From Cladochytrium replicatum (Eukaryota > Chytridiomycota > Chytridiomycetes > Cladochytriales > Cladochytriaceae), in assembly GCA_025526935.1 (NCBI GenBank), contig JAHLKD010000085.1:124001-188000 (forward strand): DNA of 64,000 nt, in the 5' to 3' direction. Below are positions 216 through 64,000 of the stretch, one piece after another; position 1 is the first letter of the stretch, and the number at the start of each line of letters is the position of its first letter. Both the position numbers and the translations under genes were made by a program. Below the pieces are notes generated by a model. It saw nothing but the letters and a program-made list of their open reading frames with translations, searched no databases and had not been told where the DNA came from.

Positions 216-2137
216 ATGGTCTCGAACACCCACGAAACGTCTGGCATCGCGGCCACATGGGAAGCTTTCAAGGCTGCCTTGCCCGACACCGGCCGCATCG
301 GCACTGTCGCTGCTGACCTGTTCGCTGACGACGCCGCCTATGTTTGCGTGCCGACCGGGGCTGGAGCCTCAGGCAACGCCGATATCGTTACGTTCTTGAG
401 GAAGGTTGCTTCGCAGTCTTCGGTTGTCGAGAGCGAGCAGGTGCGTTGCTGGATCGATTGAGAGTGGGCTCTCGAAAATTGTTTTTGCATTTACGATGCT
501 CATTTTTGGGCGATGTAGATTATTGGAAGAGCCGTTGGACCGAGCACGGTCGTCGAAGAGGCTATCCTTATCTTCACTCATGAGAGCGTGCTTGACTGGA
601 TTCTTCCTGAGGTGAAGGCTACCCGCAAGCGTGTTGTGGTCCCTTTGGTAAGTCCCCTGACTCCCCGGCACATGCACGACTACCTCCATTTGAAAATGCT
701 TGGAACCTGGCAATCGTGAGCCTGCTTTTCACTTGTGATTTGCTAACATCATTTTCACCAATCTTTCTCCTTTTATATTGTGATTGAACACCTTTGGCAG
801 ATCACCGCCGCCAACTTTAACGAGTACGGCAAGATTGCGTCAATCCGAAAGTACTGGGACCAGGGCTCCGTCCTTCGCCAGCTAGGAATTCTCCCCACCA
901 CGATGTTCTGCAAGGCAAACTCGTCCGAAACCACCCTCCCCATTCTCGGCCCTCGCATCGTTGACAAACTCCAGAACGCTGTGAACAATGTAGTCGCAAT
1001 CGAGTTGCCCGAAGAGCCTGTCTCCAGGGTAAACAGCAGCTGTGAACATCATCAATCTTTTCCGGCTTTCTGACACCTATCCAAAATTTACAGCCATCAA
1101 CTGCCCCTGCCGCAGAACGTAACGACTCCCCTCGTCGCCGCCACCAACCCGTGACAGGCATCCTCCCCCAAGGATCCGATGACGTCCCCGTGCGTCCCAA
1201 CACCTCCCGCCAGCACAAGAACTCCTCGAGCATCCTCGCCTCCGACGGCCCCCTGGGTTCCGACGACCCTGGCGCCTCTCCTGGCCGCGTCCGCCCCTCG
1301 ACACGCGTGGCCCAAGTCCCCGGCGGCCGCTCCAACAACATCTTTGAAATCGGCTCCGACCCTCTCCCTCTCAAAACCTCCGTGCCGATCGACCCCCGGC
1401 GCTTCCAGACCCAGATCGCGCTCTACGACGACTCTTCTGCGCCCGCCGAGCCAGTCTCGAAGCCCGGGAACCGTCGCGACCCGAACTGGAACGCTGAGGA
1501 CGCGGCCGCGACCGGGGCGGCAAGCGAGAAGGTGAGGGATGCGAAACCGCCAGGGATGGCGAAAGCGCCGAGCGCGAACGCGTCGCAGTGGAGCATTGGA
1601 CACGGAGAGTCGAACCTGGCGCCTGTGCACACGGGGAAGCGGATGGGACCCGTGTATGCGAATGAGAGCCATTGGTCGCTTGGGGTTCAATCCGTTGCAC
1701 CCGCACCCCCAGCTGCGACCGCCCCGGCGGTTCCTGTCGCAAGCGAGCCCGCGAATGTCGAAGATGTTGAGGAGGAGCCAGTTGCCGAGCCTGAGCAGGA
1801 AGAGGAAGAGGAGCGCGTCGAGGAAGTTGTTGCGCCGCAGCAGGAGAATCCCGAGGAGGAGGAAGCGGTTGAGTATGCGTCTGTGGAAGAGAGCGTGATT
1901 CCGGGAGTAAAGTCGCCGGCTACGCCTGTGAAGAGCGGCTTGTTGTTTGGCGCGGACGAGCCGATTGCGAGGCCGAACAGACGAGACCCGAACGCGCGCA
2001 GCGAGTTTATGCAGAGCCGTCCTTCAGCGCGGTAGGTTTTAAAGGGATGGAGGGAGAAGGGATTTTGCAAACTAAATTTTGCTTGTTGCAGTGTGATGGC
2101 ACCTCCCGGTGGTAACTCGACTATCAGCCTTGGATAA
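216..2137 (+). CDS. NTF2/SnoaL-like protein with Jupiter-type C-terminal motifs
   Basis: Five coding exons fit one frame: 216-440, 519-647, 801-1028, 1094-2031 and 2092-2137, giving about 521 aa. All introns are GT-AG. Residues 1 to about 165 form an NTF2-like/SnoaL fold, recognised by the exon-2 pattern VVEEAILIFTHESVLDWILP and the exon-3 pattern KYWDQGSVLRQLGIL, which I know from fungal SnoaL-like proteins of this type. The rest is disordered, acidic around residues 430-460, and carries spaced motifs: RVAQVPGGRSNNIF, GHGESN, two NRRDPN and, across the last intron, SARVMAPPGGNSTISLG. The last motif resembles the PPGG-(S/N) repeat of Jupiter/HN1 (JPT1) microtubule-associated proteins. The final 46-nt exon is needed to complete it. 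A role in microtubule or scaffold binding is inference; the enzymatic role of the NTF2-like part is unknown. Confidence is high that the gene is real and moderate for the C-terminal assignment. Confidence 0.85.
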
Positions 2138-2890
2138 GAGATTTACGAGATCTGGATGGAGTATGGTGCGATAGGATTTTGCTTATTTGTGTTTTGGAAT
2201 CTGAAAGCGTTTTTCAAACCAGGACGACCACGAAACGCGATATATTTCAGAATCCTTCTTAGACTTTCTACTTTTTTTCTTCGCTCTTGAGCAACTGCAG
2301 TCTGAATCCCATTCCTTTGAAAAATGTTCGGTAAATGAGAAACGAAAACAAAAAGCATCGTCAAGCGAATTTTATCTTTTTACAGGGTTTCTGTTTTGTG
2401 CCATGTTTTTTGTTCGCTGCTGTTTATGCTATTTTGCCGAGTGTTTCCATTTGGGATGATTCTGCGTCTCCTTTGTTCTTGATATGGCTTTCGGTTGTTA
2501 CTTTGAAACTAGAGTGGGGATGGGCATACAGCTATTTTTGAAGCGATTGAGGACCTCTTTTGTTGCAGTCTGAGTGTCGAATTTTCATTGCATTTTAACC
2601 GAAACTCGACTCGGTGGTGCCGAGCACAAGTTGCGGGCAAACGACGGCACTACGCTCCAGCTCACTTCCGCATGTTCCGATGACTAATAATATACAGTAA
2701 TACCCGTACTGCGACCAATCCGTCCCTGAGATCGTGCTCTTTGCCAAGTCGGTCCCACCTTCCATCTTTGGACATATGTGTCACTCATTCGTGCTCACTG
2801 GATCCTCCGCCCTGATCCCCCTTCCAGCAATAAAACCCGCTCCTCCTCTCTGCACCCAACAATCCCCACTCCCATTCTCAACTCAATAAA
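2138..2890. other. Intergenic, no gene seen
   Basis: AT-rich 3' flank of the NTF2-like gene, then the upstream region of the next gene. Open frames here are short and have no recognisable domain. A CAATAAAA string near 2828 and a pyrimidine-rich leader just before 2891 are the only promoter-like signs. Confidence 0.6.
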
Positions 2891-4073
2891 ATGACCAAAG
2901 ACGACCACCTCCCTGACCACTTCCCCTCCGTCGACGCTCCCCCTAACTACGCTCTCCACGCCTCCTCCTCAGGCTACCTCGTCAAATACGCCCTGAGTGG
3001 TGCAAAGAATCTCCCGCCCGGAACAGCTGCCTACCACGTCGTCCACCATGACGAGAACCACGAGAGTATCGGTGGCGCGGAAAAATATGTTGTAACAAGG
3101 ATGAAGCAGAGCGGGACGATCGCGGGGAACGAGGCAGCGAGCTCGGATAAGAAGGGACATGATCTTGAGGATGACGTCGAAGTGCCGTATTTGGTATGTG
3201 AGGATGGCTGGTGATTCGGATAAATGTGCTGATGAAGTGGGAATGGCTGTAGGTGACGCTGTCGAATCCCGTTACGAACGAACCCATTTTCAGGGCTGAT
3301 GCTGTAAGTTACACAGTGTAATTCACATGAATTCCTCGTTCTAACTTAATGCTCAGCCCACGGCATTTGATCTATGGGAACACACCAGCAAAGTCGGCGT
3401 CGAGGGCGGGCACCTTGCCGTGCACTACGCCGATCTGCACCACAGTGACCTGCGCACCCCCCAGCCCTGGCACAGTATTGCATTCAAAATCGACAAGGCT
3501 CACGCGCGGTTCGTGATGACGCTTCCGCCTGCACCCGGCGCGTCCTCCGACACCGGGATTCTCGCCGAGCACTTCCACGTCGAGCCGGCGATGGCGGAAG
3601 AGCTGAAGCAGGGGAGCGTGTTCTGGCAGGTTGTGCCGCCGCACGGATCATCGGAAAAAAGCAAGGAGACTGGGTTGAAAGAGGTTAAGAATGAGTGGTT
3701 CTGGATGGTGCTCAAGGCGGTTTCAAATGATAACAAGAGTGAGGTGAGAAGTGCACTCCTTAAATTCTTGCTTGGATTGAATATTGACGGGATGACTTTT
3801 TAGGAGGATATTCTGGCTTATGCGAAGATCAGGACGACGCATACCCAGGAGGTCTTTGTGGACTTGTTTGACCCACCGCTGGTTCAGGTGGCCCAGGACA
3901 TTCGCAAAAAGTCCAAGGAGCAACATGCGGCAACGGCGACCGAGGGCCGACCGCATCGGATTCAGGAGCATGTCGTTGTTGCTACGGCATGGATGCTCGG
4001 CGATCTTGTGCGGCAGCGCGTGATTGCCGTCGGCGTGGTCCCGTCGGACTCGAACAAGTGCATGATTTTGTGA
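2891..4073 (+). CDS. Uncharacterised protein with C-terminal CaaX box
   Basis: Four exons join in frame: 2891-3193, 3253-3303, 3357-3743 and 3804-4073 (336 aa), with short GT-AG introns of 53-60 nt. I do not recognise the family. The protein has no signal peptide or membrane segment. The middle part (about residues 120-245) reads as a globular beta/alpha domain with tryptophans (HSIAFKIDKAHARFVM, NEWFWMVLKAVS). The C-terminal exon is helical and ends NKCMIL followed directly by the stop. C-M-I-L fits a CaaX prenylation signal with Leu in the last position, typical of geranylgeranylation by GGTase-I, so membrane attachment is a reasonable inference. The start is the first ATG after a C-rich leader (CAATCCCCACTCCC). 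Codon use is GC-rich like the NTF2-like neighbour. Coding status is well supported by conserved frame across three introns. Confidence 0.8.
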
Positions 4074-4689
4074 TCTAGCCCGGTGTTTGTGTGCTGGCAG
4101 TCTTTGTTCTCCATTGCGTTATGCTACGGTGCGAGGTTACGATTAATGATTGTATTTTTTGCTTGTGATTACACCTGATAACTAACGTGTGAATACATAA
4201 TTCTCTTTTAAGGAACCGCTCTTCATAGACCCGCTGTTGGATATCCACCAAGCAAGGACACTCTTGCCTGCACACCAAAAGATACAACCCTCACATCCAG
4301 CAGTCGCTCGAACAACCTCCTAACGATGATATTCGTATTGGAGATGTGGTAAACGCTTGTGGGACAAGCTCGCGCGCACGTAGCTTCGGACCTGGAGACA
4401 ACCTTTATTAGCAGCGAACAGCGTGGCGGACAATCGCAAATGGAGATCAAGTCATTGCATACACTCAGCTCAACGCGAATGGGATCTCTCCTCTCGGTGG
4501 TATGATCAAGCTCCGGAGAACGAACGTGTACACCCGGATCAGGAGCAAGTCATTGTTGGACCGATCAAGCCGCCCACCTGCAGAGGCGCAATCTACGCCA
4601 CGCAGCACACAGCAACTCTGGAGTCCTGGTAGTATGCCCCCTGAAAACCAAAGATCTAGCATTTGAGTTCAGTCAAGATGCCATGCGAG

Positions 4690-5050
4690 AGATAGGACTC
4701 CTTACTGGCAAGGAGGAGCAAGTGGTTGTCACCGACAACGCACAAGAAATGATTTCAAAAGTGCGAGGCATGGCCACGCAAGCGCGGCATCCAACATAAC
4801 ACTACCATGCCGTACACCCCGATGCAAAATGGACCTGTCGAGCGAGCAAATTGGACCCTCTAAAATCTTACACAAGCTATGTTAGATGAGGCGGGAGTGA
4901 ACAGCAATCTGTGGGGCGAGGATGGAAACAGCATGTTACTTAAACAACCAGCTTCCACGCAAGAGGGGCAACAAGAGGATTATGCCATTAGAGGCCGCGA
5001 CAGGCAGGAAACCACTTTGTTTTAGCAGTCGCAGACACGAAATCTGAACG
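4690..5050 (+). mobile_element. Copia-type retrotransposon fragment (integrase), decayed
   Basis: Reading + with frame changes gives a Copia-type integrase: LLTGKEEQVVVTDNAQE, then HNTTMPYTPMQNGPVERAN (the TPxQNGxxER signature), then sequence matching the end of the integrase core. Stops and frameshifts interrupt it. The stretch about 4690-5045 is homologous, in reverse, to 5125-5470. No LTRs could be recognised. Sequence 4200-4690 is probably an older part of the same insertion but I cannot align it. Confidence 0.7.
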
Positions 5051-6390
5051 CTTTGTATCCGACAGAGATTCCTGGGATAGCTCGATTCGCTTGCTTGGAT
5101 GGGAAGTTATCGTGGACGTATGCCACGCGTCCCCAGGTCTGCTGTTTGCTGACATTTGGTTTCTTGCCTGTCGCGTTCTCTAATGGCATAATCCTCTTGT
5201 TGCCGATCCTGCGCGGGAGCCAGTGTTTAGGTAACATGGTGTTATCATTGCCTCGCCTCACAGCTTGCTGTTCACTCCCGCCTCATCTAGCCTGTGTAAA
5301 ACTTTGGAGGGTCCATTTCACTTGTTTGATGGGTCCGTTCTGTATCTGGGTGTACGGCATGGTAGTGTTGTGTTGGATGCTGCGCTTGCATGCCCATGCT
5401 TCGTACTTTTGAAATCAATTCTTGTGCATTGTCGGTGGCAACCACTTCGACTTTCTTGCCAGTAAGGAGTCGTATCTCTCACACGGCCATCTCCATTCCT
5501 TCAACTAACTTCTGGGCCTTCTCTATCCGATTGAATCCGGCGTGTCCAAACTTTTGTATGCCAACTGATGAGATCGGCTGTTGCGTTGTTACGCTCTACC
5601 TCCCTTACGATTGATCGGGACAGATCAAGAGCGAACAAGTCACAACATGTCTTATTGAACTCCATGACTTTCACGCTGTTGCAACTGATCTGCATCTTCT
5701 TTCCAGCACTGTAGAGCTTGAGACGGTGTTGCATGAGTTGATTCCATGATACCAAGTTGTCCGATAGGTTTGGAGCGAAGTACAGTTCACTAAGGATCAT
5801 CTCCCTCTCCCGCCCTCCAACTGATACCAGCAATTGAACTTTTCCGATGCATATCTGCTGGCTCAACATTGAAGGTATTCACCACTGGATTGAACTCAGG
5901 AGGGAGTGATGCAAGGATATACATCAGTTGCTCTTCGCTGCTAATTTTGACGCAGATCACTGCAAGCTGCTGGATGTAGTCTTGCAGCTTCAAAACGACA
6001 ACGCGGAGGTCACCAGATTCCAGGAGTGTCATGATGAGCTGGCGCCAGAGCTTCCCCTTGCTTGAGAGCGATCCGCCCTGAGCGAATTGAGCTTCTCCAG
6101 CATTGCTTTGGCCGTAGGCTCCTCATCCACAAAGTTGAGGGCAACGTCGTAAGTCGTTCCAGGATATGGCTATGTTGTCCTTGAGTGCTTGTTTGAGCTA
6201 TTCCTTGTGCTTTGCGAAAACCTCGTCGGAGCTTCCTGCTGGTGGAGCTTCTGGGAGACCATTCTCCACAACATCGAAAAGTTCTTTTCCCTGCAGATAT
6301 GCAACGAGTTGTTTGCGCCAGGTGTGATAGTTCTCGCCCTTGAAGATATGCTTGTTTCGAGCTTAGACTGTCCTCAGTGGTCATGGTGGA
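5022..6390 (-). mobile_element. Copia-type retrotransposon fragment (gag-protease-integrase), decayed
   Basis: Read on the minus strand from 6384 down. The gag start (MTTEDSLSSK) is followed one frame over by FKGENYHTWRKQLVAYLQGK, a UBN2/Copia gag pattern. Next come LASLPPEFNPVVNTF near 5950, the post-protease motif LYFAPNLSDNLVSWNQL near 5780, and integrase-like sequence to 5022 (RRIGNKRIMPLENATGKKP, GISVGYKAFRF). Several frameshifts and stops make it non-autonomous. It converges with the + strand fragment at about 5050-5120, so the two form an inverted pair. Confidence 0.75.
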
Positions 6391-6550
6391 GGTTGGTGTG
6401 GGTATGGTGTTGTTGCGGGGTTTTCCTTGTAGATGTTTTTGAAAAGATGAAATCGAACTGTAAAGGTCATGGTGGAGGTTGGTGTGGGTATGGTGTTGTT
6501 GCGGGGTTTTCCTTGTAGATGTTTTTGAAAAGATGAAATCGAACTGTAAA
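6379..6550. repeat. Tandem duplication, 2 x 86 bp
   Basis: The 86-bp unit starting GGTCATGGTGGAGGTTGG and ending GAACTGTAAA occurs twice head to tail (6379-6464 and 6465-6550), apparently without differences. The first copy includes the gag initiation codon of the adjacent Copia fragment. Confidence 0.9.
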
Positions 6551-7146
6551 GCGTGATGGTTAAAACTGATGGCAATAGAGTGAGGTTGATGAGTCAGAAC
6601 TAACCACTGCTACCAAGTTGAGTTTTGGAAAAAGGAGGATTGGGTGAAAGATCTTCAAGTACATTGAGGGGCATGAGCTCCGCTTTTAAATCGGTCCAAA
6701 GTGCTAGAATCTTCCCCAACATAAAATCCTGCACATTCCATCAAGTTTCCATCACGTTCCCTTAAACTAAAGCTTGTATGAAATAGCGAATAAAGTAAAC
6801 AAATGGAGTTCAGCTTTCAGAACAAACTTAGTGTAGTGGTTGCACCTCCGCCCAACCAGTGGAAGGGTTTCCTTTCGTACATCGACAAAACCTTTTTACG
6901 CTGCGAGTTTTCGCTTCTTTGCTAAAAAAGCTTTTATGAAGAAAATTATAATTCAACAATTCGTGAACGGGAACGGTTGTTTCAAGCTCGCAGATACGGC
7001 CGTGTCTTCTGGAGGTGTATTTTATGGGTAGTCCATGTCAATAAGTTCGTATGCCATTTGACTTTGCGAGGTTTGAATCACGCAAACAAAATTGTACACT
7101 CCGTCAGCGATAGCGAATCACCTCACCGATTCGAAGAGATCCCTCC
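6551..7146. other. Unassigned intergenic sequence
   Basis: AT-rich sequence between the Copia remnant and the racemase relic. Open frames of 60-110 codons overlap here but none shows a domain or splice-consistent continuation. Confidence 0.5.
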
Positions 7147-7236
7147 GCCGCTGCTTCCCCAGTCGTCCCAGTTCCCCCCCAGTCGTCACAGGCCGCTGCT
7201 TCCCCAGTCGTCCCAGTTCCCCCCCAGTCGTCACAG
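7147..7236. repeat. Tandem duplication, 2 x 45 bp
   Basis: A C-rich 45-bp unit (CCGCTGCTTCCCCAGTCGTC...CACAGG) is present twice in succession just upstream of the racemase-like relic. In one frame it encodes ASPVVPVPPQSSQ twice, so it may have been a Pro/Ser-rich linker or leader. Confidence 0.85.
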
Positions 7237-7870
7237 GCACCCACCGCCTCCTCGTCATCAACCCCAACACCTCCACCTCAATGACAGAAGCCCTCCATCC
7301 CCCTCATCGCCTCGCTGAACCACGCAAACCTACATACGACCTACCTCACAGCACCCCTCGAAGGCCCGCACCCCCATCGACCAAGCACCATCACAACAAC
7401 ATACATCGTCCCAACCCTCCTCCCGCACCTCCTACCTCGCAAACCACGACGCCTTCCTATTGAACTAACACTAATTCTATACAAAGGTTGAGTTGTACCA
7501 GAACCAGGTAAATAATCTTAAAAAGCTTGGTAATTGGTAAAGAAGGAAACTATTGATAAGAAGCCGGATTTTTAAACAAGATTGAATTTTTACATTAAAC
7601 AATGATTTCGAAAGCTTTAATCAACTGAACCGCAGGGACACTGGGGGCGTGTGGGATCGTGGCGACGGGGATGGTGTGGGCAAGGGCGGTTGGGGAGATG
7701 GCTGCGGGGAAGAGGAATTTGCAGGGGCCGAGTCGACGGGGTTGAGTGCGTATGAGTTGCATGCGTTGGATGCTGGGGAGGTGAAGAGGGCGATCACGGC
7801 TGCGACGAGGGCCAGATCGGGGTATCTCTTCTGCCAATGCGATGACTTTCTCTTTGATGTTGGTAGGCAT
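7237..7870 (+). pseudogene. Asp/Glu/hydantoin racemase-like pseudogene
   Basis: Two pieces of one family lie in order. At 7240-7310 the frame reads THRLLVINPNTSTSMTEAL, the canonical start of the Asp/Glu/hydantoin racemase family (Dcg1-like). It continues after a shift with LIASLNHANLHTTYLTAPLE and, in a third frame, SSRTSYLANHDAFLLN, ending in a stop at 7463. At 7640-7800 the C-terminal half reappears: GIVATGMVW in one frame and FAGAESTGLSAYELHALDAG in another. The middle, which should carry the first catalytic Cys (CYSDHPL-type motif), is absent, and at least three frameshifts are present. The gene is therefore dead. Confidence 0.65.
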
Positions 7871-33165: not shown

Positions 33166-36100
33166 CTACTTATCAAAGCGCGCCTGTGCTTGTTGGCGTT
33201 TCAGTCTGTTTGCTCCAATCCCGTCCTTTTTCACAGTTGCCGCACCTCCCCGTGTGGGAGTTCCCATGAGGGCACCTTTGCTTCCAGTTCGGCTCGCCGC
33301 TGCCTTTGTCTTTGAAGGAACCTGTGTGCTCGGATTTGAAACAGCTGTTGGTGCCCCGTTTTTATCCGCATTGTCCCCGGCCATCTCGTCCAACGTCTTC
33401 ATGGGAGTCGCAGCGCCATTCCCAGAATTGGCGTTCTGCTCGCAACGCTTGACCCTTTCTTTCACAGACGCCGAACGGCTCAAGAAAATTCCGGGTGGTT
33501 GTGGACGTGATGGGGGAGGATGCGAGTCGAATCCGTGGGATTGCAAATGCACGACGTTCTGTGGGTTCGCGGGCTCCTCGATTAGGTGCGATGAATCACG
33601 ATCAAACAGGTTGTTCACAGCTTCGCTTGAACCAGATGTGTTCTGGGCAGAAGTGGTCGCCAATTTTTCTTTGCTTGATGTTCGTGATCCCATTCCTCTC
33701 TGGGTCCATGCAGATCGTCGCTTGGAGGCGTCCGTAGAGGAATCTGAGCTTTTTTGGTGACCATTCTTTGATGATGGCTGACTGGATCTCTGCTCCATGT
33801 CACGCATTTTGGCCACTGTAGGAGCATTCAGTTTTTGTGGTGAAACAGATGGTGAAACGCCGCCTGGCTTCTCCGCGAGAGCGATGGGAAGAGATGCTGG
33901 AAGAGGCGAAGAGCTTTGAGGAACTGCAATTGACATTGTCCCCCGTGTAGGCGTAACAGGCTTCGATGGCGAGTCCCCCTTTCGATTGCCGCCGGAATAA
34001 TTAGTGGTTACTGACGGTCGATTGCTTCGTGTGACGCTCTCCCTTGCTTGCTGATTTGACCGATTTGTTTTTGGGGAGAGCTTAGTTCTGAATTCTCTCC
34101 CTTCCGACCCAAACCTATTACTCAAGGAATCGTCATCAAACTCTCTACTTCCTCGCTCTTTCAGATTTCCATCCTCTGACAAAGGGATTTCATCAGATGT
34201 TGAAGAGACAGTTTGATTAACCACCACAGACTGAAGTTGTGGGATCTCAGCAGAACTTTTGGTCGGAAGCGGGGGCGGAGTTGCTGGAATGTCAGATGTT
34301 ACTTCACTATGTCCATCGCTGGAGCCTGGTCCGAGCTTCGTCTGGGGAGCCTTTTCTAGCAAAGTTGTAAAAGGTGGGGAAGCAATTGATCTAACCTCAG
34401 AAGTGCGGACACCAGTGGTCGCCTTCGATGATTCGTTGTTCGTTGAATAGGCAGATTGGAAGAACGAAACCTTTTGTGAGACAGCGCTATTCCGGGTGCT
34501 CGGAAGTGGTTTGGAATTTTCCGAACCTGTTCATTCCACATTAAACAAGACTCGTTGTGATGAATCTTGTACAGACTCACCCGACGACAGGTTTTCTTTG
34601 GGGAGGGGAGATGATGAATCCATCTGCTGCTTATCTGGCGATTTTTTTGAGACGGAAATGGGAATTTGTGATTTTGGATGCGTCCGAACAGCGGGAGGGC
34701 TCTTCTCGGTTTCCGGAGGTCTCGTTGGCTTGTTGGTGGGTTGCTCTACAATTTCATGTTCGTTCTCACTCACTGAAACAGCTCCGACAGTTTGCATTTC
34801 TGGTTTCAATATCAGGACACTTGTCTGGGCACACTCTAGTTTAGTGTCATTGCTGGTATGAGCAGGGTAGGGAGTGGACGAAGTCAATTCTTCCTTGTAG
34901 TGCTCCTTTGAATTGTGCTCTTCACTTTCGACTTCAACCACTCGTTCGATTCCAGAATCGTGGTAGACGGGAGCAATTGGATGCTTCACGGGTTCATCAG
35001 TCGTAGGCTTCACATTGCCTGTGACCTGGCATGATTCCATCTCGATGCTTTCGATTGGTGGCTCATCAATGGGCTCCATCCCACTTGGTTCCGTAGGTTG
35101 TGGGCTGTTGGACTTGGAGGTGAAAGTAGCTTCAGCATCAGGTATTGATGAAAATTGTTGCATCATGCTCTTGGAATCTGCGGAGCTCGCCTGTGGCAGT
35201 TCCTCTGACTGGTCGCCTTCCGAATATTTTCGTTGAATACTTTCTGTTTTTTGCGAATCCGCCAGTAGTGTCTCAACTGGATAGTCTGTCTCCCCCCGCG
35301 CTTGAATCTCTTCGACAGAGCCGGAATACACTTCCTCTTCTGAATTTGTGATCACCTCATTTTCGCTCATGGAGAATGCTGGCTGAAGCGTCAATTTCTC
35401 TGCAGGAGACGAAGGTTCTTCACAATACGTCGCTTTGGGAGAAATTCCTTCGCGAGCTTTGTTGGCTGTTTTCCCGTTTGATTTCTTTACATCCTCCACG
35501 TCAGATTCATCATCTTCGTCATGATCGCTGCCTTCTTCAACTGTCGATTTTAATACGTGTGAATGGAGGTCCGTTCTGGGCTTCGGAGGAAATCTTTTGT
35601 TGAGGTCTAAGTGCCAAAATGTTATTAATTTGTATTAACAGAGAACCCGAATAGGTTCGAATTACCTTCAAGTAAAGCTTTGATCTCTTTCTCTTTTTCC
35701 TCCAATGCCACATCTTCCAATGTTTCTCCATCATCGGTTTCGGCTATAAGATCGATTGGACCATCAGGCGGATAAAACCACTGGGCATTCGCTTTGTAAC
35801 CCGGCGGAGCACTCGTGCTCAGATCATCCTCTGTTCTCCCCTGGCACCTTCCGAGTAGCTTAATTATCTCAATGTGGCCCTCGGCGACAGCGCAGTGAAA
35901 CGGCGTCCAACCTTCCTTATCTTTGACGTTGACCATCGCTCGAACTTCGTTCCCAATCAAAAGCTGCACAATGTTGGTGTTTCCGTGTGTACACGCGAGG
36001 TGAAGGGCTGTAAGCCATTGATGAGGCGTGGATAAATTGTTGATGTCCACCGTCAAGTCCACTGGGGGTACTTTGGATTCCTCAGGTATTTCGCAGAGGC

Positions 36101-37400
36101 CCAAGGTTTCTCGAAGAGTTGGTAGGCTGTCATTATCAACAGGATCCCCACGCATACAAATGTCCAACACCGTTGTTCCTGGATCGAAGAGAACTCTTCC
36201 ACGATTTTTCATTTTGGCCTTCGCTTTCACTAAAATCCCTGATCTGCCGCTTGGATGTGGTAGATCATCGGAAGAGATGGCACCATTTTGTTGCTCGGTT
36301 AGTATTGGAAGAGTTGATGTCGGAAGGGAGCGAGAAAGAGATTCAAGTTCTAGCTGGACAGACGCTCCATGCTTTCGCTTCTCCCCATCAGTGGTTTTCT
36401 TCTCGTTCCGTGAATTCGTTGCTTCTTCCGAAGTGGTCCGAAAGGTCGTTGTCGAGGCTAAGTGACGTGGTGGCCACGCAAGTACGTTTTCGACAGAGTA
36501 TTGTTGCCGTGATGGATTAAGCGGAGATTTTGGGCTACTGTTCGTATTCTTCGGAAGCACTTAGAATAAGACTGTCAATTTTGGAGTTACAATAAGATGT
36601 GTAGCTACCTTCCGAAACAGTAGTGAACATTTTTCGAGTTACGTCGTCATCCGCACAGTCAACTGGCTTGTAACCTCTCTCATTCTTTCGGTTTGGGTTA
36701 GCACCATCCTGCATTCGCCGGTCAGTAGTTGTTGTCGACTGCAGTAGAATAAAACTTACCTCAAGCAATTTCTTTGATTTTCGTCAACGAAATATTTATG
36801 TCAAATCCAGAAGCATTTCGACATTCACTTGACTTACCTTAACCAACTCGCTCATTCCCAAGAACGCCGCCAGGTGCAAACCAGTATTTCCCTTTCCCCA
36901 TACCCTCCCCATGAACTCATACAATACTTTGCGTGCAACCATCTCATCTGTCACTTTTTGGACAAACCCCAAAATATCCAGGGCCATTTCTTCGTCCCCC
37001 AGCATGCAAGCGATTTGTACCGCATTAAGATTTTCAACACTTCAACAAAAGAGAAATTTTAGGTATTTCTTCCTGCCGGATTGCCGGACCACTCTTACCT
37101 GGTACCTAGCAGTTCATGAGCGTCAGTCAATGTATCTGGGTCGTGCGAGTAAAACTCTTCATGGTTTTGATATGAAGTCGTCAACAAAATCTGAAGAATT
37201 TCCGTTGAATCCGCTTCATTGGCGAATATTGCTTGTAAACCGTTCCGGTCCCCATCGTTGATTGCAGCAAACACCTTTCGTTCCAGCTCCGCCGAGTCAG
37301 TATACCCACCGACGCTTTCACTAGATTCTTGTCGATTATGCTCCTCAGTCCCGGTCTCAACATCAATATCTCCGCACTCTTGGCTTTCGCTGTGTTCCAT
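33166..37400 (-). CDS. RVxF-ankyrin protein, ASPP/PP1-regulatory-like
   Basis: Seven exons give 1298 aa in one frame: 37099-37400, 36838-37039, 36760-36771, 36609-36708, 35666-36559, 34581-35606 and 33166-34526. There are two ankyrin blocks. The first (about residues 145-200) reads GNTGLHLAAFLGMSELV, KLLE, DGANPNRKNERGYKPVD. The second (about residues 340-420) includes LTALHLACTHGNTNIVQLLI and GWTPFHCAVAEGHIEIIKLL. Between them GRVLFDPGTTVLDICMRGD is an RVxF docking motif followed by the turn seen in PP1-binding ASPP/53BP2 and MYPT proteins just before their ankyrins. The C-terminal 750 residues are disordered and Ser-rich. PP1 binding is inference from motif order; no SH3 domain follows, unlike animal ASPP. 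A 12-nt exon supplies KLLE of the first ankyrin helix. Confidence 0.85.
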
Positions 37401-37690: not shown

Positions 37691-40600
37691 TTACTTGTCG
37701 GAGTCCTTACCCAACTTAAACAGTCCACGCCAAAACTTTCGATTCAACGGCATTAAATGGTATTCGCACCCAAGCTCTTGGGCTATTTCTCGGTATTCGG
37801 GAATCTTGTTTTGAGCTGAGCGCACGAGTTTTGCAGCATCTGATGCTTCAGCGACAGCCTCTCCCCTTCCTTTGGTTATATCTTCCATCATAACATCGAT
37901 GTACGCAGCAGCAAGCCCTTCGTGGTAACGCATTTCATACTTTCGAGCCTGTTCCATAGCTTTCAACAGAAGACGGAAGGCCAAAACCTCTCTTGTATGT
38001 ATGAAAGCGTAAACTCCTTCAATGAGCCAAAGCTCAACGCTCAAAATTGGGTGCAAATCACAATTTCGCTTGAAAACACTGTGTACTATCCACAGCTGCT
38101 CTTCAAGCATCTGACCTTCCTTCTTGGGGAGAATTGAACGCAAACGAAGCATCCCCTCGAGGACAGCCGAGAGTCCAAGACCATAAGTGATCTGCAATTT
38201 CGCTCTATCCGTGGGAGAGTCGTAAGTCTGCTGATTTCCTTTCAGTTGTTCTTTGGAACCTTCCGGGCTGTTGTTGTTACCATTCGATCGGAACTTTTCC
38301 GACCCAATGGCTTTCTCATCAAAAATTTCCATGTTGATCTTGATCTCCTTTGTTTCATCTGGCGAATTCGAGTCACCATATGTACTCCCCATAATGTATC
38401 GCGTCAAGATTAGGGAAAGAACAACCTGAGACGCCCGAATATCTTCCACAATGGAAAGGAACAAGAACATATGAGCGAGCAATCGAAAATCATGCGGGGT
38501 TGTGTCGGGTCTGGATGGCATGACGACGTCTTTTGGTTCTGGTTCTTGATTCGACCTGCTTGATTGAAGAATTCGTATCACCTCTTCCATCAGCACATGA
38601 CGCATTCCGGAGATCTCTGGCAGCCCATTAGTTCTCCTCAAAGCAAGTTCCAGCCGGTAGCACTGATATAACACAAAGCTGTGCAACCGATGTTCGAATG
38701 GATTGTCACTCTCAGCAAGCGCTGCAAAGTTGGGGCGTCGAAGACCGCCTGTGCTTCTCCGCTCCTCGCTGCTCATTATAATTGGCTCAAGCTCTTCATC
38801 AAGAACCTTTGCTGCCGATGTAAATCGACCAGTGAGGTAAAACGCCGTGATTTGAACGTGATACAGATGTGCAAAGCTCCGCGCATGCCCAACAAGGTTC
38901 CCCGCTATGGCGCGTGCTGCATTCAGAGTCTCCGCAGCCTTTTCAATCATCCCTTGATTAATCAATGCACCTGCAAGAAAGGTCTGGAACTCGATCATCG
39001 CATACGGATCGTTGAGCTCTCCTGCCAAAGCCCGACCTTTCTGGACGTATGATTCTTGGAGATAATGGAACGAAGGGTTCAAACTCAACGAAAAAATTGC
39101 ATGACCATATGCAATGAGCAAATCTCGAGTCGGGAGGATATACTCTTCCAGCAAGTTGATCGTCTGGAGTGTCCAGCACAGACCACTCAACGTGCAGAGA
39201 TTGCCCAGACCTTCCAAAACAAATAGCCGTCGCATCAAACTCCCTGCCCAGAAGAGTGACTCTTGTTCGTTACACCGACAAAATAGCGACGGCATCGCAT
39301 TCCTGATCAGCGCTTTGGTGACTTCGGTGGCAGCCATAATACGTTGACCTGTCCTCCATTGAGACATCTGGTATTCCATCCTCAAGAGCAGCTTCTGTGC
39401 ACAAAAACTGCCTTCAGCAAGCCATCCGCATTGAATTAGTGCCACAGTGCTCAAGTATAGTACTCGCAACAGAAGAGACTCGGGTAGAAGCATCTCAGTT
39501 TCTTCGTCAGTGAAATGATCGTATCTTGTAGATCTTGCCTTTTCTAAATCCTTGCCGCCTGGTGAATTCAACGACCCTATGCTGCCCTTCCGGAAACTGT
39601 CGCACACATGACGTGCACGAGCCAAGCACTGCAGTGCCATTCGACCATTGTTGTGCTCCACCTCATACTCTGCAGCCACGACATAATGAACGATAGCCCG
39701 TGACTTCACTCCCGCGCTCTCATAATTCCGTGCAATTGCTGCATACGGAACATATCCGGCACGCGAATCAATTGTTTGACCATGGTCCAAAAGTTCGTCA
39801 GCAGACTCCTGAGGCTCCAAGTCACTTGGTGACGAAGCGTTCAGAGTTGCTGGAGAGGCTGAGGGTGAATGTGCATCTGGTGATGTTGCGGTCGCAGAGG
39901 AAGGGGATGTGGAGAGATGGTATTGAGTAAACGAGTGCCGATTTACTGCATCTACTCGATCTTCCAAATATCGGGCGACAGCTAAGTGCACCTTTTTTCT
40001 GGTGCTTTTCTGCAACGATTCGTAAAGAAACTCTCGTGTTGTTGAGTGCTGCCAATGGTAGCCTTCCCAGTGACCCCCAGCGTTCGAATCCAGTCGTTGA
40101 TAGACTAGAATGTTCTTTCTCTCCACTTGTTCCAGCACATTCATCATATGCGGCAATCGCGCTGCTGAATGAACTTTCACAAGTACATTGAAGAGCATAT
40201 CGATTTCGATGAAGCTCCCCATCGCTGCACAAACCGAAAGAAATTCAATCTCCTCTCTCCACAGGTGCTTGATGTAAATGTCCATGATTAGCTTATACTC
40301 GGATGAGTCCAGTCCTCCGTCGCTTCTCCTTGCCGGACGCTCGTCAACTTTAGATTGCGGTCCATCATTAGGACCATTAGCATAATCTTTAACAAGAAGG
40401 GATCCAAGATCCGTTTCCGCGATCGAAGCTGACCTGCCTCTTCTTCGAGATACGTCATCACCCTCTCCACCATCTCCATGTCTGGTTTCCTCCTCCTTCC
40501 GTACATTCTCAGCCAATCGTACAATGCATAGCGGAACCCTTCCCGTTGATTCCATCATCTTTGCCATTGCGACAGGATCCCTCGACCCGGCTCGTTTCCC

Positions 40601-42726
40601 AACAGTCATAGAGTACAGAATCTGACATTCTTTCTCTCCAAGTGGGCCCAGGCCGACATGTGTTGTTTGCGATAGCCTCTTCAGCGTAGATTGAACCTGT
40701 CGAATGTATCGCCATTCCGATGCCGCCTGCTCTGGCGCCAATGGCTCTTCAAGTGCCTTCAGATTCAAATTTCCTCCGGCTGAAACTGAAAGCTCGTCGA
40801 GCAGAGAGACGGCACGGATATCGTGCTTTTCACGAGAGTGATATGTGCCCACTGGACGAGAAGCGAACACAAATAAAGTTTTCAACCCTTTAGGCCGCTC
40901 CATCACTATCAGCTCTATAAACAGCTCGACGGAGGTTACATCGCACCATTGTAAGTTGTCAACTTTAGCAGCAGAAAACCAAACATAATTTCAGATTTAC
41001 TTGCAGCTCTCTTTTTTGTATATCTCACCGAAGAAAGTGATGAACGGTCCTTTGAAGTGATTCTGGAGTAACAGCAGAATGATATTTGCGATTTGTTTCA
41101 GCGAACCACTTTCTGCCAAAATATTTCTTGTAAAGTCCGTCTCTTCATAGCCAGTGTCCACCAACGGATTGATCAAGGGCAAGAGTCGGATGATATCAGG
41201 ATCGCCTCTCACCAAATCCTTGAAAAAGTCTCTTCGTCGATCTCGATTACAATTGCGTACAAACCCGCCAAAGTACGACACGAACAACAGGCTCGCCGTC
41301 GAAAGCGAAACTAATTGAAAATCTGTTCCTGCCGACGCCTGCCAGATCAATCCGCCGCGTCCCCTTATAACTTCCAAAGCTTTCAGTGCCAAAGCTGTTT
41401 TCCCTATACCTGGAGAAAGCAATCGAGTCATCAGTGCTACGGATCGTTATCAGGAATGTGATCTTAACCTGTTTCTCCTTCAATAAATATACATCGCGAC
41501 TGCACGGTTTCCTCACTGCTCTTAATGAACCCATCTGCCACCAAAGCAACTCTCTCAAGCTCCAAAGCACGCCCAGCAAATGTCGGACCGACAAACAGAT
41601 CCTCTTCGACCTTGTTCCCTCTCCCAGGCCTATTCTCCGTGCTTAAAATCATCCTGCGTTTCTTCCATGCGCTGTGCTCGGTATCCCACAGTCCCGAATC
41701 ATCCAATTTCACTGAAACTTGCACCGATGCAATGCTCTGGTTCGAATTCGACGGTTTCACACCCAGCCCATCTACCGCGATGATCCCCTCGAGCTCCTTA
41801 AGATCCTCGATGATCTGCTGCCGTTGTGGCCGCCTGAGTTTCGAAGGCTGCCTTAAAAGCCTTGCCTTCTTCTGAGAACCGTCCTTTCCAAACGTCGCAA
41901 TCACCGAGCTCCCACGCACGTTCCCGGCTTTCGCAAAGGCCACCGAAACTCTTCGGTCCTCTTTGGATTTGCTCTTCGACTCTGCAAGCTCCTCGTCGGA
42001 CGGCAGCACGATGAATACCTCGCTACGGTGGCGTCCCCATCTTCCCTTGATAAGCAACTTTGTGACAAGAAAGTGCGCGAGCGGGAAGACGGTGTACAGA
42101 AATATACAGAGGATCGAAACGGAAAAGACCATGAGTGGCAGAAACGTGATCACGATCTGTGGCTCGCCCCACAGCGTCGCGGCGACCAGCAAGTCTTTCA
42201 GGATGATCAGGATCGCAGCGACTGTGGACAGTCTCCGCACTTCCAGCTTTGGCATTGGCATCGCTTTAGGGTACCTCCACACCTGCTTTGTGAAAAGCGT
42301 CACAAAGCTCGCATTGAAGACCGAAAGAACAGACGCTACCACGGCGACCCGAAAGTGCTGCCGGATCCATCTTCCGACAAGGTGGTTCATCCGCGAGACG
42401 GCAATGAAGCTGTACACGCCCCAGAGAACGTTCACAGCGGTGAAAATTGATAGGATCCAGACGAGTGGGCTGAACATCCTTCCTTCTCGGGTCGTTGGCT
42501 TGACATTGAGGAGATCGTACCGGCCGTCCACGTCCACGATTTTGAAGAGATAAATGCACAGGAGGACGTCGATCGAGAGATCATACACGTTGAATATGCC
42601 TAGGAGTAGCTTTGCACAATCCTGTAGTTGAAGATGGTGTCGTCGAAAGTAGACGGATGCGGAGAGTATCAAGAAGAGGCCTGTCAGCCCCACACAGGCA
42701 TACTCCATCGGTCCGAAGCGATTCAT
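37691..42726 (-). CDS. Multipass membrane protein with AAA-type NTPase and helical-repeat C-terminus
   Basis: Three exons (41469-42726, 41029-41409, 37691-40962) encode 1636 aa. Residues 1-235 contain six or seven hydrophobic segments, e.g. YACVGLTGLFLILSASVYF and IVITFLPLMVFSVSILCIFL. After a basic linker, residues 385-600 form an AAA/NACHT-like NTPase: FAGRALELERV, Walker A GETGIGKTALAL spanning the first intron, Walker B-like ITFFVDNLQWCDVTS spanning the second, and FVFASRP as sensor 1. This order matches the NTPase half of soluble adenylyl cyclase (ADCY10) and related signal-transduction ATPases. The remaining 1000 residues are TPR-like helical repeats, as in that family. No class III cyclase domain is present. 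The usual acidic pair of Walker B is VDN here, so hydrolysis may be weak. ATG 42726 was chosen just before TM1; an in-frame ATG 57 nt upstream also exists. Confidence 0.88.
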
Positions 42727-56835: not shown

Positions 56836-59681
56836 TCAGGTTGTTAGCCCCGTCCCAAACTGTACTTCCTCAGATTCGATACCAAACATTTCCACCAAAT
56901 CGTCCTCATTCACAGAACCCTCATCTGCAACCTGCACAGACCATCTTAACTTGTCCAAGTGCTCCATAAGTCCACCAACTGCCCACCAATTTGTCAAACC
57001 CATGATTGCTCCGAAAGTTCGTCCGGACATGTTATGGCGGTTCTTCTGCAAAGTAAGACCACCTGCTGAGAAGAGACGGTCTGATGCAGCACTAGAAAGA
57101 CAGATCACAAAATGGTCGTGGGCGACAAGTGAGAGCAACGGGTAGTCAAGGGCGTAGATCTTCCACCACTCGAGAGGGTTCACTTTCTCATCGGCAGTTG
57201 GACTGGACAGGAACTGCTCAAGTTCGTCCTCCCATGTACGCACCTCATCAAATTTAAATAAACAATAAACATCAAGTGGATTTTCTATGATGATATATGT
57301 TACCTTGTGTGCTGCTTTTCCTCTTGATCCACCCCAAATGAGTGCATCAAGCCCATTCACAGAAGCCGTGGAATCAGTCTGGTTGTCCCTGTAGATGCCC
57401 GGGTTTTCATCTGCATACCGCTTAACTGTTGTTTTCAAGCTAGCAATGCCCAATCATGTAGGGTAAATTTGGATTGTGAAACCATGAATACATACTGCTC
57501 TTCCATCTCTTTAGATATACGTGAACCCCACTTGTTTTGCTTGAAATAAACTCGCTTATGACGTGGATCCAGGATCAGTGCTGTGACTGTCACCTCGTCA
57601 TTAGTAGCATTATAGTAGTCGTGGATCGTAGTCCAGCATGCTAAAAGTACAAAGTATCACTTTGAATTCAAATGAGCTCATAACCTTATCATACAGTGTG
57701 CTGCTTTTTTTACAACTTCAATCGTGCTTGATTGTCCTTCCTCAACTTTGTTGAACATGATGTTGAACAGGGGAATGAGCTCGTTGTATGTAACTTGAGT
57801 TTCGCTCTGCACACGTTTGGTGAGTAGGTCAAATACTTCGAGAAAATCTGCAATATCGGCCATGTCCTTCCAGAATAGATCATCAATGCTGGTCCCTGGA
57901 GGCACTTCATCTTGAAGTTTTCTATCAGCATTGACCAGTAATTCAATTGCCTTTTTAAGTACTGGTGTCAGATAATTGATTCTTCCCGAAGCCCAATCTT
58001 CACTGCATAAAATTACCTTGCAGACCCTCAATGCCGTCACCATCATTGTGTAAGTTGAGTTCCAGCGAGTTTCATTATCCAGCTGCAGTTTGTTGTTGAT
58101 GGGACTGCTGTGGAGTGTCCATCATGGTTTGCTCATGCAACGATTTCAATTTTTCTTGCTTCTGCGGAGATAATTGAGTCTTGACAATGATGTGTCGAAG
58201 CTATTTGAGCAAGAAATTGAATCAGTCAAATTTGCAATTTTTACACCTTTCCGTACTTAAAACATCTACTCCGTCCTTGATAACTGTGAGGCATTGCTTG
58301 GAGACCAAATTAACGATATGTGCAAAGCATCGGACAAATGTGCGGCTTGCAGGCTGCTCAACATTTCGTGAGCAGCCTGTCTCTTGTAAAGCTTTGGTAA
58401 ACATTTCGTTGTTCGAAGCATTATCTGCTGTGATCCAGCCGATCCAATAAACAAACTGTAAGGATATCATGATCGAAAGTTGAGCGGTCAAGGAAATCTT
58501 ACCTTTTCAAAAAGATTATATTCATCGATAATGGACACAAATGCATCCCGAATTGCTTTGCCTGTATGGCGTCCAGAGGCCCCCTTGAAACCAAGAACAC
58601 AAGCACAAAGTTTCCAATCTGAATCAATCCAGTGGCCGGTGACTCCAATGAAAGGTTTCCCTGACTTGCTCGTCCACATGTCTGTTGTAAATGACATCCT
58701 CCCTGGAACAAGACCTAGGGGAAGAATTATTGAGCATAAGCAAGGACATAAATTCATGGATATTTGTCAAAACTGAATTGTGCTTACCTGCAATTTTCCT
58801 TTTGACTTGCCTAAGTTCAGCAGAGTAGATCTTCATGAGGAGCCGCTTAGTCGTCTGAGGTGAGTGATGGACAAACTCTGGGCACAAGTATGACAAAAAT
58901 CGACGGAAGTGGAGCCGGGATGACAGATTAAAAGAGAGGCCATCGCAGACAATTGCCTCAATGAGCAATCTGTTTGCTACTTTTTGCTTGAATGACCGCT
59001 GCAGAGATTGTGAGTAATGAGGTAAACTCATTCGATTCCAGACTTACGCGGTGCTTCCCACTCTGCACTTGAAGCATTTGCCCCACAGTCATTTTGGACT
59101 TTTTCAGCCCTTTATCAATTTCATCAAGGTCAATGGAATGCCTAGCGCGAAGATGTCCCTTCAAAGCATTGGTTAAAAAAAACAGAGCAAGAGGCTGCAT
59201 TTAAAGTTGCAAGACTTACCCTCTGATTTGTTGTCGAACTACTGATAACCTTGTAGCGCACCATCTTCTTCATTTGTTGGCATTTGATACAAACGTCGTA
59301 CTCAACCTCAACACCGCCCTCCATTTGCTTCTCTCGTTTATAGTAGCTGTGGATACTCAATGAAAATCTTGTGTCAGTCCTGACTCTGGCAGCATCTTGG
59401 GCCATGCCGAGTTCAGAAGTTGGTTCTGCTGCAGTAAACGAGCCCTGGTTATCAGCCTCCCCCTCACCCTCAACTGCTAGTGCTGAGCTTGACAATGATC
59501 TGCGTGAAGTATTCAACTTGCGTCGTTTACAATTGCGGGAGTTGTTCTGGGTTTCCCTCTCACTTTCAAGCGGTGAAGATGTTGATGAACTTTTATCAAT
59601 ATCCTCTGGTTCTTCATTGTAGATGTTGCCCTTATTTTGTTGTTCTTTCGATCTATTTGACCTGTATCCTAGGTAAGTCAA
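56836..59681 (-). CDS. hAT family transposase with BED zinc finger
   Basis: Multi-exon gene inside hAT1, read leftward. The N-terminal part (59681-59142) is acidic/Ser-rich, then has a BED finger: CIKCQQMKK and, after a short intron, LKGHLRARHSIDL. Downstream: LIEAIVCDGLSFNLSSRLHF (about 58950), FTTDMWTSKSGKPFIGVTGH (about 58700; the TDxWTS motif), WITADNASNN (about 58430; catalytic Asp in DNASNN), RCFAHIVNLV (about 58320), and ADFLEVFDLLTKRVQSETQV (about 57830). At the C-terminal dimerisation region are EWWKIYALDYPLLS and SSAASDRLFSAGGL (about 57160-57060). The final exon ends at 56836. Introns near 58490, 58750, 59035 and 59200 have GT-AG ends. All expected motifs are present and I found no clear disabling mutation, so the protein may be functional. 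The true first ATG is uncertain; an ATG near 59733 on the minus strand followed by a GTAAGT donor is a candidate. Confidence 0.85.
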
Positions 59682-62496: not shown

Positions 62497-64000
62497 GAAA
62501 AGTAAAATGTTTCAAAACACTAAGGCATATCCAAATCAACAAAAGCAGACAAGATACAATCAGGAGCTGGAGACAAAACTAACTCATAACCAAGACAGTT
62601 TGACCAAATGCGGTTAAGTGCACGAAGAACAAGAACCCACTGGGAAAAAGCAGGGGAAGGATAAAAAGGCGGTGGTGAAAGCATATCAATTGCAATGTCA
62701 AGAGGTAGGCGGGGATCGTCAGGCGGGCCTAAATCAAAACTAGCAGACAAACTAGCACGCAAATGTAGACACACAGAGACATGGGCACGCGACACTTAAG
62801 GGGCATCATGACAGTTCCGACAATAAGGTCGGGGGTTTGGAAACAGGCGGCCAAGCCGATATAGCAGGAACAAACGAAGACATACTGTTGGGAGATGTTG
62901 GTGTGGGGGTAGCAACAAAGGGTGGCGAAGTTTCAAATTGCGGACAGGGGCAAACGAAACTGCAATTGGTCCATTATGCGCAACAGCTAAAGACTGAAAA
63001 TGCAACATCAACGGATGAAGTGGGAGCACAGCAGGCATAGGAACAATGAGATCATTGTGACAAGCGGAAAAATAAGGAGATGAACCATAACCGACTGGAG
63101 ATGACCGATAGAATTGCAACACAGCAGCAGGTAACAGAGGGCTGGAATCACTAGACCAGCGAGCAAACATACGAGCCTGAAGGTATTTCAGCCTGAACTC
63201 AAAAGTAGGAATTTGCGCTAACAGCAACAAACCAACACGCGAAGTGGTATGGGCTATCGAAAACAGACGACACAGTGCATGATAACAAAAACGCTCGAGT
63301 ACCTGAAGCTGAGCAGTGGAAGGCCGAATAAGTGCTAAACCAAACTCAAGTGAAGGTCTAATAAAAGACAGAAACAACAACCTGGCAACACGAGGAGCAG
63401 ACCCACCAAAGTACGAGACATAAGGTGCAAAAAGATACAATGAGGCACGAGCTTTCTCTAAGCGATGATCAATAGTTGCAGCAAGATCAAACCCTTCAAT
63501 AGTAAAATAGTGACCAAGGTATCTAAATGAAACCTCTACAGGGAGGGCAGAGCCATGAAGCTTCAAGGGGGTGGGTAACCGTTGAGAAGATAACACAGCA
63601 CACTTTGAAGGTGAAAACACAAAATGAGAAGCTAAAGCAAAATCTTCACAAATTTTCAATGCACATTGGGCTTGCTCAGGGGTGGCAGAAAACAGAGCTA
63701 TGTCATCAGCAAAAAACAACGAATTGAAAACAGGAGTGTTATAAGAAAACCTAGCAAGATGAGAAGATTCACGACGAAGGAGCTGTGCTAAAGGATTGAT
63801 GAAAACTGAGTACAAGAACGGAGACAAAACAGAACCTTGAAAAAGACCTCGTGGAAGCGAAAACAAATCAGAAGAACGATTCTCTATAACAACCTGAGAA
63901 GAACAACGATCAAACATACTCATCAAAACAGAGATCAAACGGTTTGGAATTCTGGGAAATTGACGAAGACGTTCCCACAAAAGAGGCCTATGCACAGTAT
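62497..64000 (-). mobile_element. LINE family A copy 2, reverse transcriptase ORF, runs off the window
   Basis: The minus frame from 63995 to 62796 encodes a non-LTR reverse transcriptase: LPRGLFQGSVLSPFLYSVFI (motif around QGSVLSP), FFADDIALFSATPEQ (catalytic FADD), the thumb with LGHYFTIEGFDLAATIDHRL, and the C-terminal region NPRPYCRNCHDAP. One TAA (62793-62795) interrupts the frame exactly where copy 1 has GAA, after which VSRAHVSVCLHLRASL continues to 62520. The palm start and any endonuclease lie beyond the edge. This copy is therefore nearly intact apart from one nonsense change. Confidence 0.88.

Follow-up and report, generated by a model that had tools for sequence, protein, structure and literature searches.

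We examined a 64,000-nucleotide stretch of the chytrid Cladochytrium replicatum (contig JAHLKD010000085.1, positions 124,001 to 188,000; the whole stretch is called the window here), in which the minus strand of 37691-42726 carries one three-exon gene for a protein of 1636 amino acids (aa), with the ATG at 42726 and the stop codon at the end of exon 3. At a probability of about 0.5, we read the product as a membrane-anchored protein whose STAND core is divergent and in which a sensor-triggered nucleotide switch would act on a transmembrane (TM) effector module. The gene structure, the domain order, the STAND-type motifs, the winged helix and the TM segments were computed from the sequence. The combination of six TM helices, a STAND-like switch and a helical tail is unusual. 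The exons and introns, followed by the predicted domains, are:

42726-41469, minus strand: exon 1, running from the TM module through the linker into the NTPase and ending after GET and the first base of the next codon
41468-41410, minus strand: intron 1, 59 bases, GT..CAG, interrupting the P-loop
41409-41029, minus strand: exon 2, opening with the remainder of the P-loop (GIGKT)
41028-40963, minus strand: intron 2, 66 bases, GT..AAG, interrupting the first codon of VDNLQW
40962-37691, minus strand: exon 3, stop codon included
42007..42726, minus strand: membrane module, aa 1-240, by hydropathy on two scales
41602..42006, minus strand: basic, disorder-prone linker, aa 241-375, by composition
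40787..41601, minus strand: STAND-like/AAA_16 nucleotide-binding domain (NBD), aa 376-605, spanning two introns, by Pfam and alignments
40307..40786, minus strand: helical domain with polar insert, aa 606-765, with the GxP-like site GRVPLCI at aa 687-693, by alignment
39947..40306, minus strand: winged-helix domain, aa 766-885, with the motif YHWQHSTTREFLYES..RKKVH at aa 848-872
37694..39946, minus strand: arm and TPR-like helical tail, aa 886-1636, by weak TPR profiles, TPR sites and fold matches

An earlier note on this DNA had given the coordinates and length exactly and had described TM segments fused to a Walker A/B NTPase and repeats. The prediction that the TM part and the NTPase part form one gene holds: splicing of exon 1 to exon 2 completes the P-loop exactly, which argues that both parts are encoded together, and Walker A (GETGIGKT, aa 417-424) and Walker B (VDNLQW, aa 547-552) are both in frame after splicing. 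At the base composition of the window, the chance of a given stretch staying open is about 1e-10 for 445 codons and about 2e-25 for 1099 codons. The coding support for the TM exon comes from its open frame and the splice junction.

The NTPase and repeats resemble a STAND core, made up of NBD, helical domain and winged helix and followed by TPR-like repeats, but divergent at two motifs. This reading of the sequence and the structural model is drawn from three results. Pfam AAA_16 matched the NTPase region with an E value of 3.1e-9 and 38 bits, above the cut-off of 32.6 bits (on the whole protein the score was 32.6 bits, equal to the cut-off). The motif order is collinear with that of six bacterial AAA_16 proteins in the alignment. 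The fold search proposed in the earlier note for the NTPase and tail gave PH0952 and MalT as the best matches, with TPR solenoids also among the matches. The NBD carries a FAGR box (aa 383-386), Walker A, Walker B with its first aspartate kept (D548), and FASRP (aa 579-583), and the winged helix is placed after the helical domain as the STAND order requires. The Walker B acidic site VDNLQW singled out earlier is real, and it may hint at nucleotide sensing rather than turnover, as the note suggested.

Six TM helices are predicted by hydropathy in the membrane module (approximately aa 9-27, 40-58, 84-109, 125-146, 167-187 and 190-225). Six or seven had been claimed before; a seventh is not clear, and the wording is explained by the length of the sixth segment, which could bend. 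Charged residues lie within TM2 and TM5 (D49, D52, K178 and D179). By the positive-inside rule, with hand-set loop limits, a topology with both ends in the cytosol (N-in/C-in) is favoured. Structure prediction of this part, also proposed in the earlier note, yielded a low-confidence single-sequence model (pLDDT 53) with helices across all six segments, the second split in two; the weak model had no match to PDB folds at E ≤ 0.001. No match of aa 1-240 to a GPCR, a rhodopsin or another polytopic family is listed in Pfam or NCBIfam, the PDB sequences gave one chance match only (a ribosomal protein), and a search for relatives of the module in the rest of the genome found none beyond the gene itself (one candidate scored). 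A microbial rhodopsin and an XK-related scramblase, both suggested by the charges in TM2 and TM5, were rejected with no Pfam match. A profile search of the genome with PF09815 found nothing, but the controls were silent too, so that the search is uninformative. In the linker, 47 bases (window 41951-41997) are 91% identical to C38:188675-188721 with unrelated flanks.

The tail was weakly matched by TPR_MalT, TPR_12, TPR_19 and TPR_14, all below cut-off, and the model underlying its fold matches has mostly low pLDDT in this part. Two tail sites fit what we take to be the TPR consensus; shuffled sequences had a mean of 0.12 sites and reached two in 3 of 500 cases. The earlier figure of about 1000 residues of helical repeats is somewhat too large: the helical domain and winged helix extend to about aa 885, and the mostly helical tail that follows them has about 750 residues.

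Apoptosis, NLR immunity in plants and animals, and regulation in bacteria work through STAND switches, and a nucleotide-binding switch with a helical-repeat tail of this kind is found in Apaf-1, MalT and soluble adenylyl cyclase (sAC). In the available part of one study (PMC6468293), the STAND cycle runs from an ADP-bound closed resting state through inducer binding and ADP/ATP exchange to head-to-tail multimerisation; the effector domains sit at either end, and the inducer site is in the repeats in several instances. For the chytrid protein we infer a nucleotide cycle of this type, a joining of the cores, a sensor in the tail and an effector role of the TM module. At rest, the NBD, helical domain and winged helix would clamp ADP, and the arm and TPR-like tail would hold the clamp shut. 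A cytosolic inducer or partner protein would bind the tail and loosen the clamp, ATP would swap in for ADP, and the opened cores would join head to tail. Since the N-terminal end of each core bears a six-TM module, this joining would gather or rearrange the modules in the membrane as the output (e.g., ion passage or a partner platform). With asparagine instead of an acid at the second Walker B position, hydrolysis is expected to be weakened, as in AAA+ proteins generally; here this would slow ATP hydrolysis and prolong the ON state. The TM module is located at the effector end of the STAND anatomy and is thus a putative effector by position. The earlier note took it for a receptor or sensor, a role that by the same anatomy usually falls to the repeats.

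Several observations weigh against the switch-and-effector reading. The second Walker B acid is replaced by asparagine (N549), which weakens the claim of an active ATPase. This acid is usual in AAA+ proteins and needed for hydrolysis, and we do not treat it as strictly defining. All six bacterial proteins have D at the position (preceded by D in five and by E in one), and the ADCY10-like protein of the same genome, described below, reads H-E. GRVP in the helical domain aligns with xGNP, with the proline kept and the glycine of GxP replaced by R. With two deviating motifs switching is unproven; the switch may be dead, and the R at the GxP glycine adds to this doubt. As for the coding of the TM exon itself, codon usage trained on exon 3 prefers the right frame by only a little (0.027, with -0.004 for the next best frame), and synonymous-codon usage scores about zero (-0.03).

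It is possible, though we consider it unlikely, that the signal enters through the TM module: it would be a membrane receptor for a ligand, and the NTPase and repeats would read its state as a transmitter or scaffold in the cytosol; this is close to the view of the earlier note. N-terminal polytopic modules of signalling proteins are often sensors, and the charged residues of TM2 and TM5 might contribute to a site for a ligand or an ion. The placement of the STAND inducer site in the repeats in several cases (PMC6468293, available part) argues against it, as does the lack of a match to a known receptor family in Pfam, NCBIfam and the PDB sequences; with the TM part as input, moreover, no recognisable output domain remains. 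More doubtful is a TM module that serves merely to fix a STAND-like scaffold to a membrane (plasma membrane, endoplasmic reticulum, flagellar or organelle), where it would gather partner enzymes. The altered Walker B and GxP sites suit a scaffold and TPR-like repeats bind proteins, but six helices exceed what an anchor needs.

We regard as distinctly unlikely descent from an ADCY10-type protein by loss of the cyclase domains and gain of a membrane module, a claim about origin that overlaps the other readings. The description of the protein as the non-catalytic half of sAC was half right: the NTPase and repeats are not specifically half of this enzyme, but form a chassis common to it. In full-length sAC, a STAND domain with a P-loop is predicted behind the cyclase part (PMC12802110, available part), which explains the earlier impression. 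Resemblance to cyclase-linked NTPases was borne out. Six weak matches to aa 375-1000 among 7977 scored candidates were all bacterial AAA_16 proteins, five of them with a Guanylate_cyc domain, and the bacterial cyclase-AAA_16 proteins (P0001-P0004 and P0006) align collinearly with the chytrid protein. The best NCBIfam match was TIGR03903, a kinase/cyclase fusion (E 1.3e-4 with the NTPase part and 0.0028 with the winged helix, neither of them near its cut-off), which is also the best NCBIfam match of the ADCY10-like gene (E 1.3e-17). A tie to ADCY10 in particular was not borne out. The common parts are general STAND parts, the order of NTPase, winged helix and repeats being general for STAND proteins in the portion of PMC6468293 at hand, and the genome's own ADCY10-like protein is only weakly similar (in the region of the winged helix, with a tblastn E of 0.002). 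Searched together in one small set, the six bacterial proteins scored better (E 3e-8 to 5.7e-6) than the ADCY10-like protein (E 0.0093), a comparison that is not even-handed since the six had been picked for similarity to the query. ADCY10 has two class III cyclase domains. No cyclase family is listed for the 1636-aa protein, in agreement with the earlier note (only AAA_16 and four weak TPR/STAND families are listed, with filters that drop most matches above E 0.1), and the upstream frames are alginate-lyase-like. The STAND core and long C-terminal region of ADCY10 are present here too, though they are not specific to sAC.

The separate ADCY10-like gene is found on contig C52 (C52:241000-250900, positions 1357-7340 of that piece). 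One segment of it matches human ADCY10 structures (best E 8.2e-9); the segment upstream is first-cyclase-like by eye only, with no PDB match. Both cyclase-like segments were missed by Pfam and by a Guanylate_cyc search of the whole genome, which gave 23 matches, all on other contigs. The gene has a degenerate P-loop (GGQGLST), a Walker B variant (FHETHW), a winged helix and TPR.

G+C at third codon positions falls from 0.60-0.75 in aa 1-400 to 0.42-0.56 beyond, with the step near the TM/NTPase junction. The N-terminal exon may have been added, or the effect may be regional and extend to the upstream gene, since two upstream alginate-lyase frames also have 0.64-0.65. A gene-model or assembly artefact fusing two genes, which the step and the near absence of codon-usage signal in the TM exon would suit, is very improbable in view of the uninterrupted exon that spans the TM module, linker and first half of the P-loop, the in-frame completion of the P-loop by splicing, and the G+C of the upstream frames.

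The gene lies in a duplicated segment. Window 14271-53898 matches C98:159615-190002 in 22 pieces at 71-89% DNA identity (the C98 stretch compared was C98:145501-205400), collinear and in the same orientation save one inverted and one displaced piece. What is left of the gene on C98 is its first codons and, close behind them, the sequence from codon 852 on, interrupted by stops and spread over several frames. With its neighbours retained and the gene itself reduced and interrupted, this is a decayed copy, so that one copy is intact and one lost. DNA similarity to it starts at the ATG (window 42727). Differences by codon position are 69/568 (first), 49/564 (second) and 201/564 (third), a pattern that points to past purifying selection at the protein level for the parts retained on C98. 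The comparison covers aa 1-16, 852-955, 1006-1392 and 1565-1636, mainly winged helix and tail, and therefore says almost nothing on the TM module. Identity to C98 reaches 95-97% in two pieces close to the end of the window, which sets them apart from the rest. Other likely pairs appear in the AAA_16 list (C117/C122 with nearly the same frames by eye; C86/C125 and C40/C52 with nearly the same scores), and together with the duplicated segment they hint at genome-wide duplication or hybridity. A weak match at C38:277175 (E 0.004, three stops) was discarded, with no support from other protein parts.

The end domain of MalT is DNA-binding, and a six-TM module stands in its place here. MalT and PH0952 (Pyrococcus horikoshii, PDB 6mfv) share the order NBD, helical domain, winged helix, arm and TPR-like tail with the chytrid protein, and PH0952 likewise has a DNA-binding end domain (PMC6468293, available part). 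Both differ from the chytrid protein, which has N at the second Walker B acid and R at the GxP glycine. Tests for NLR domains fell short of the cut-offs (NACHT 12.7 bits, E 0.12, cut-off 26.7; NB-ARC 11.3 bits, E 0.2, cut-off 23.5), and the N-terminal domain is presumably none of the usual Apaf-1, CED-4 or NLR types. Class X hybrid histidine kinases have a kinase-AAA_16 architecture; no kinase or histidine kinase family is listed for the 1636-aa protein. On contig C2, a kinase-like frame followed by an AAA_16 P-loop was seen by eye and resembles this class. A PADLOC search had no match at E ≤ 0.05 (best E 0.064). Multi-TM domains, considered possible membrane pores by the authors, are reported from the variable C-terminal regions of bacterial signalling and conflict proteins (PMC8195603, available part), which differ from this protein in constant component and lineage.

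To our knowledge, the well-studied STAND members are soluble. A STAND-like core joined to a polytopic membrane module would show another coupling of the switch to membranes, and the architecture predicts nucleotide-dependent clustering in the membrane. More speculatively, and rather improbably, the protein could be a membrane-resident one-protein counterpart of a resistosome, with a cytosolic TPR-like sensor driving a nucleotide-dependent STAND ring whose six-TM modules form or gate an ion channel; if true, the STAND-gated channel would already sit in the membrane, unlike soluble receptors, which insert a pore or recruit one. In a zoosporic fungus such as this host, the protein would be a candidate intracellular sensor in a group, Chytridiomycota, whose reported NLR count falls to one in some species (PMC12258605, available part).

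Searches for orthologues were made in collections of sequences other than fungal genomes, so that absence means little. The full protein had no orthologue at E ≤ 0.001 among 7989 scored candidates, and exon 1 no match at E ≤ 10 among 7997; in both, as in the search with aa 375-1000, the number of candidates scored was capped. No match was found in viral contigs with the first 584 aa; one scan of prokaryote genomes with exon 1 gave 80 pattern matches, none confirmed; and phmmer of the PDB with aa 373-1636 gave five matches, all at chance level. A PDB profile search with the multi-row alignment A1 was set aside because its matches went to the cyclase and TPR segments of the remaining rows and are uninformative about this protein. 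No description of the architecture appeared among the titles and opening lines of abstracts listed, which included few subscription papers and, for two larger result sets, 20 of 448 and 10 of 70 papers.

Upstream of the gene is an alginate-lyase-like gene (PF05426; 42980-44491, minus strand) with at least two long frames, and similar frames are open on C98 by eye. An ankyrin frame is found downstream (35628-36560, minus strand). These neighbours were considered as functional partners and rejected, as they give no functional link (20 window frames scanned). Further along, matches to a hAT transposase dimerisation region and a reverse transcriptase are found at window 56839-57453 and 62799-63998.

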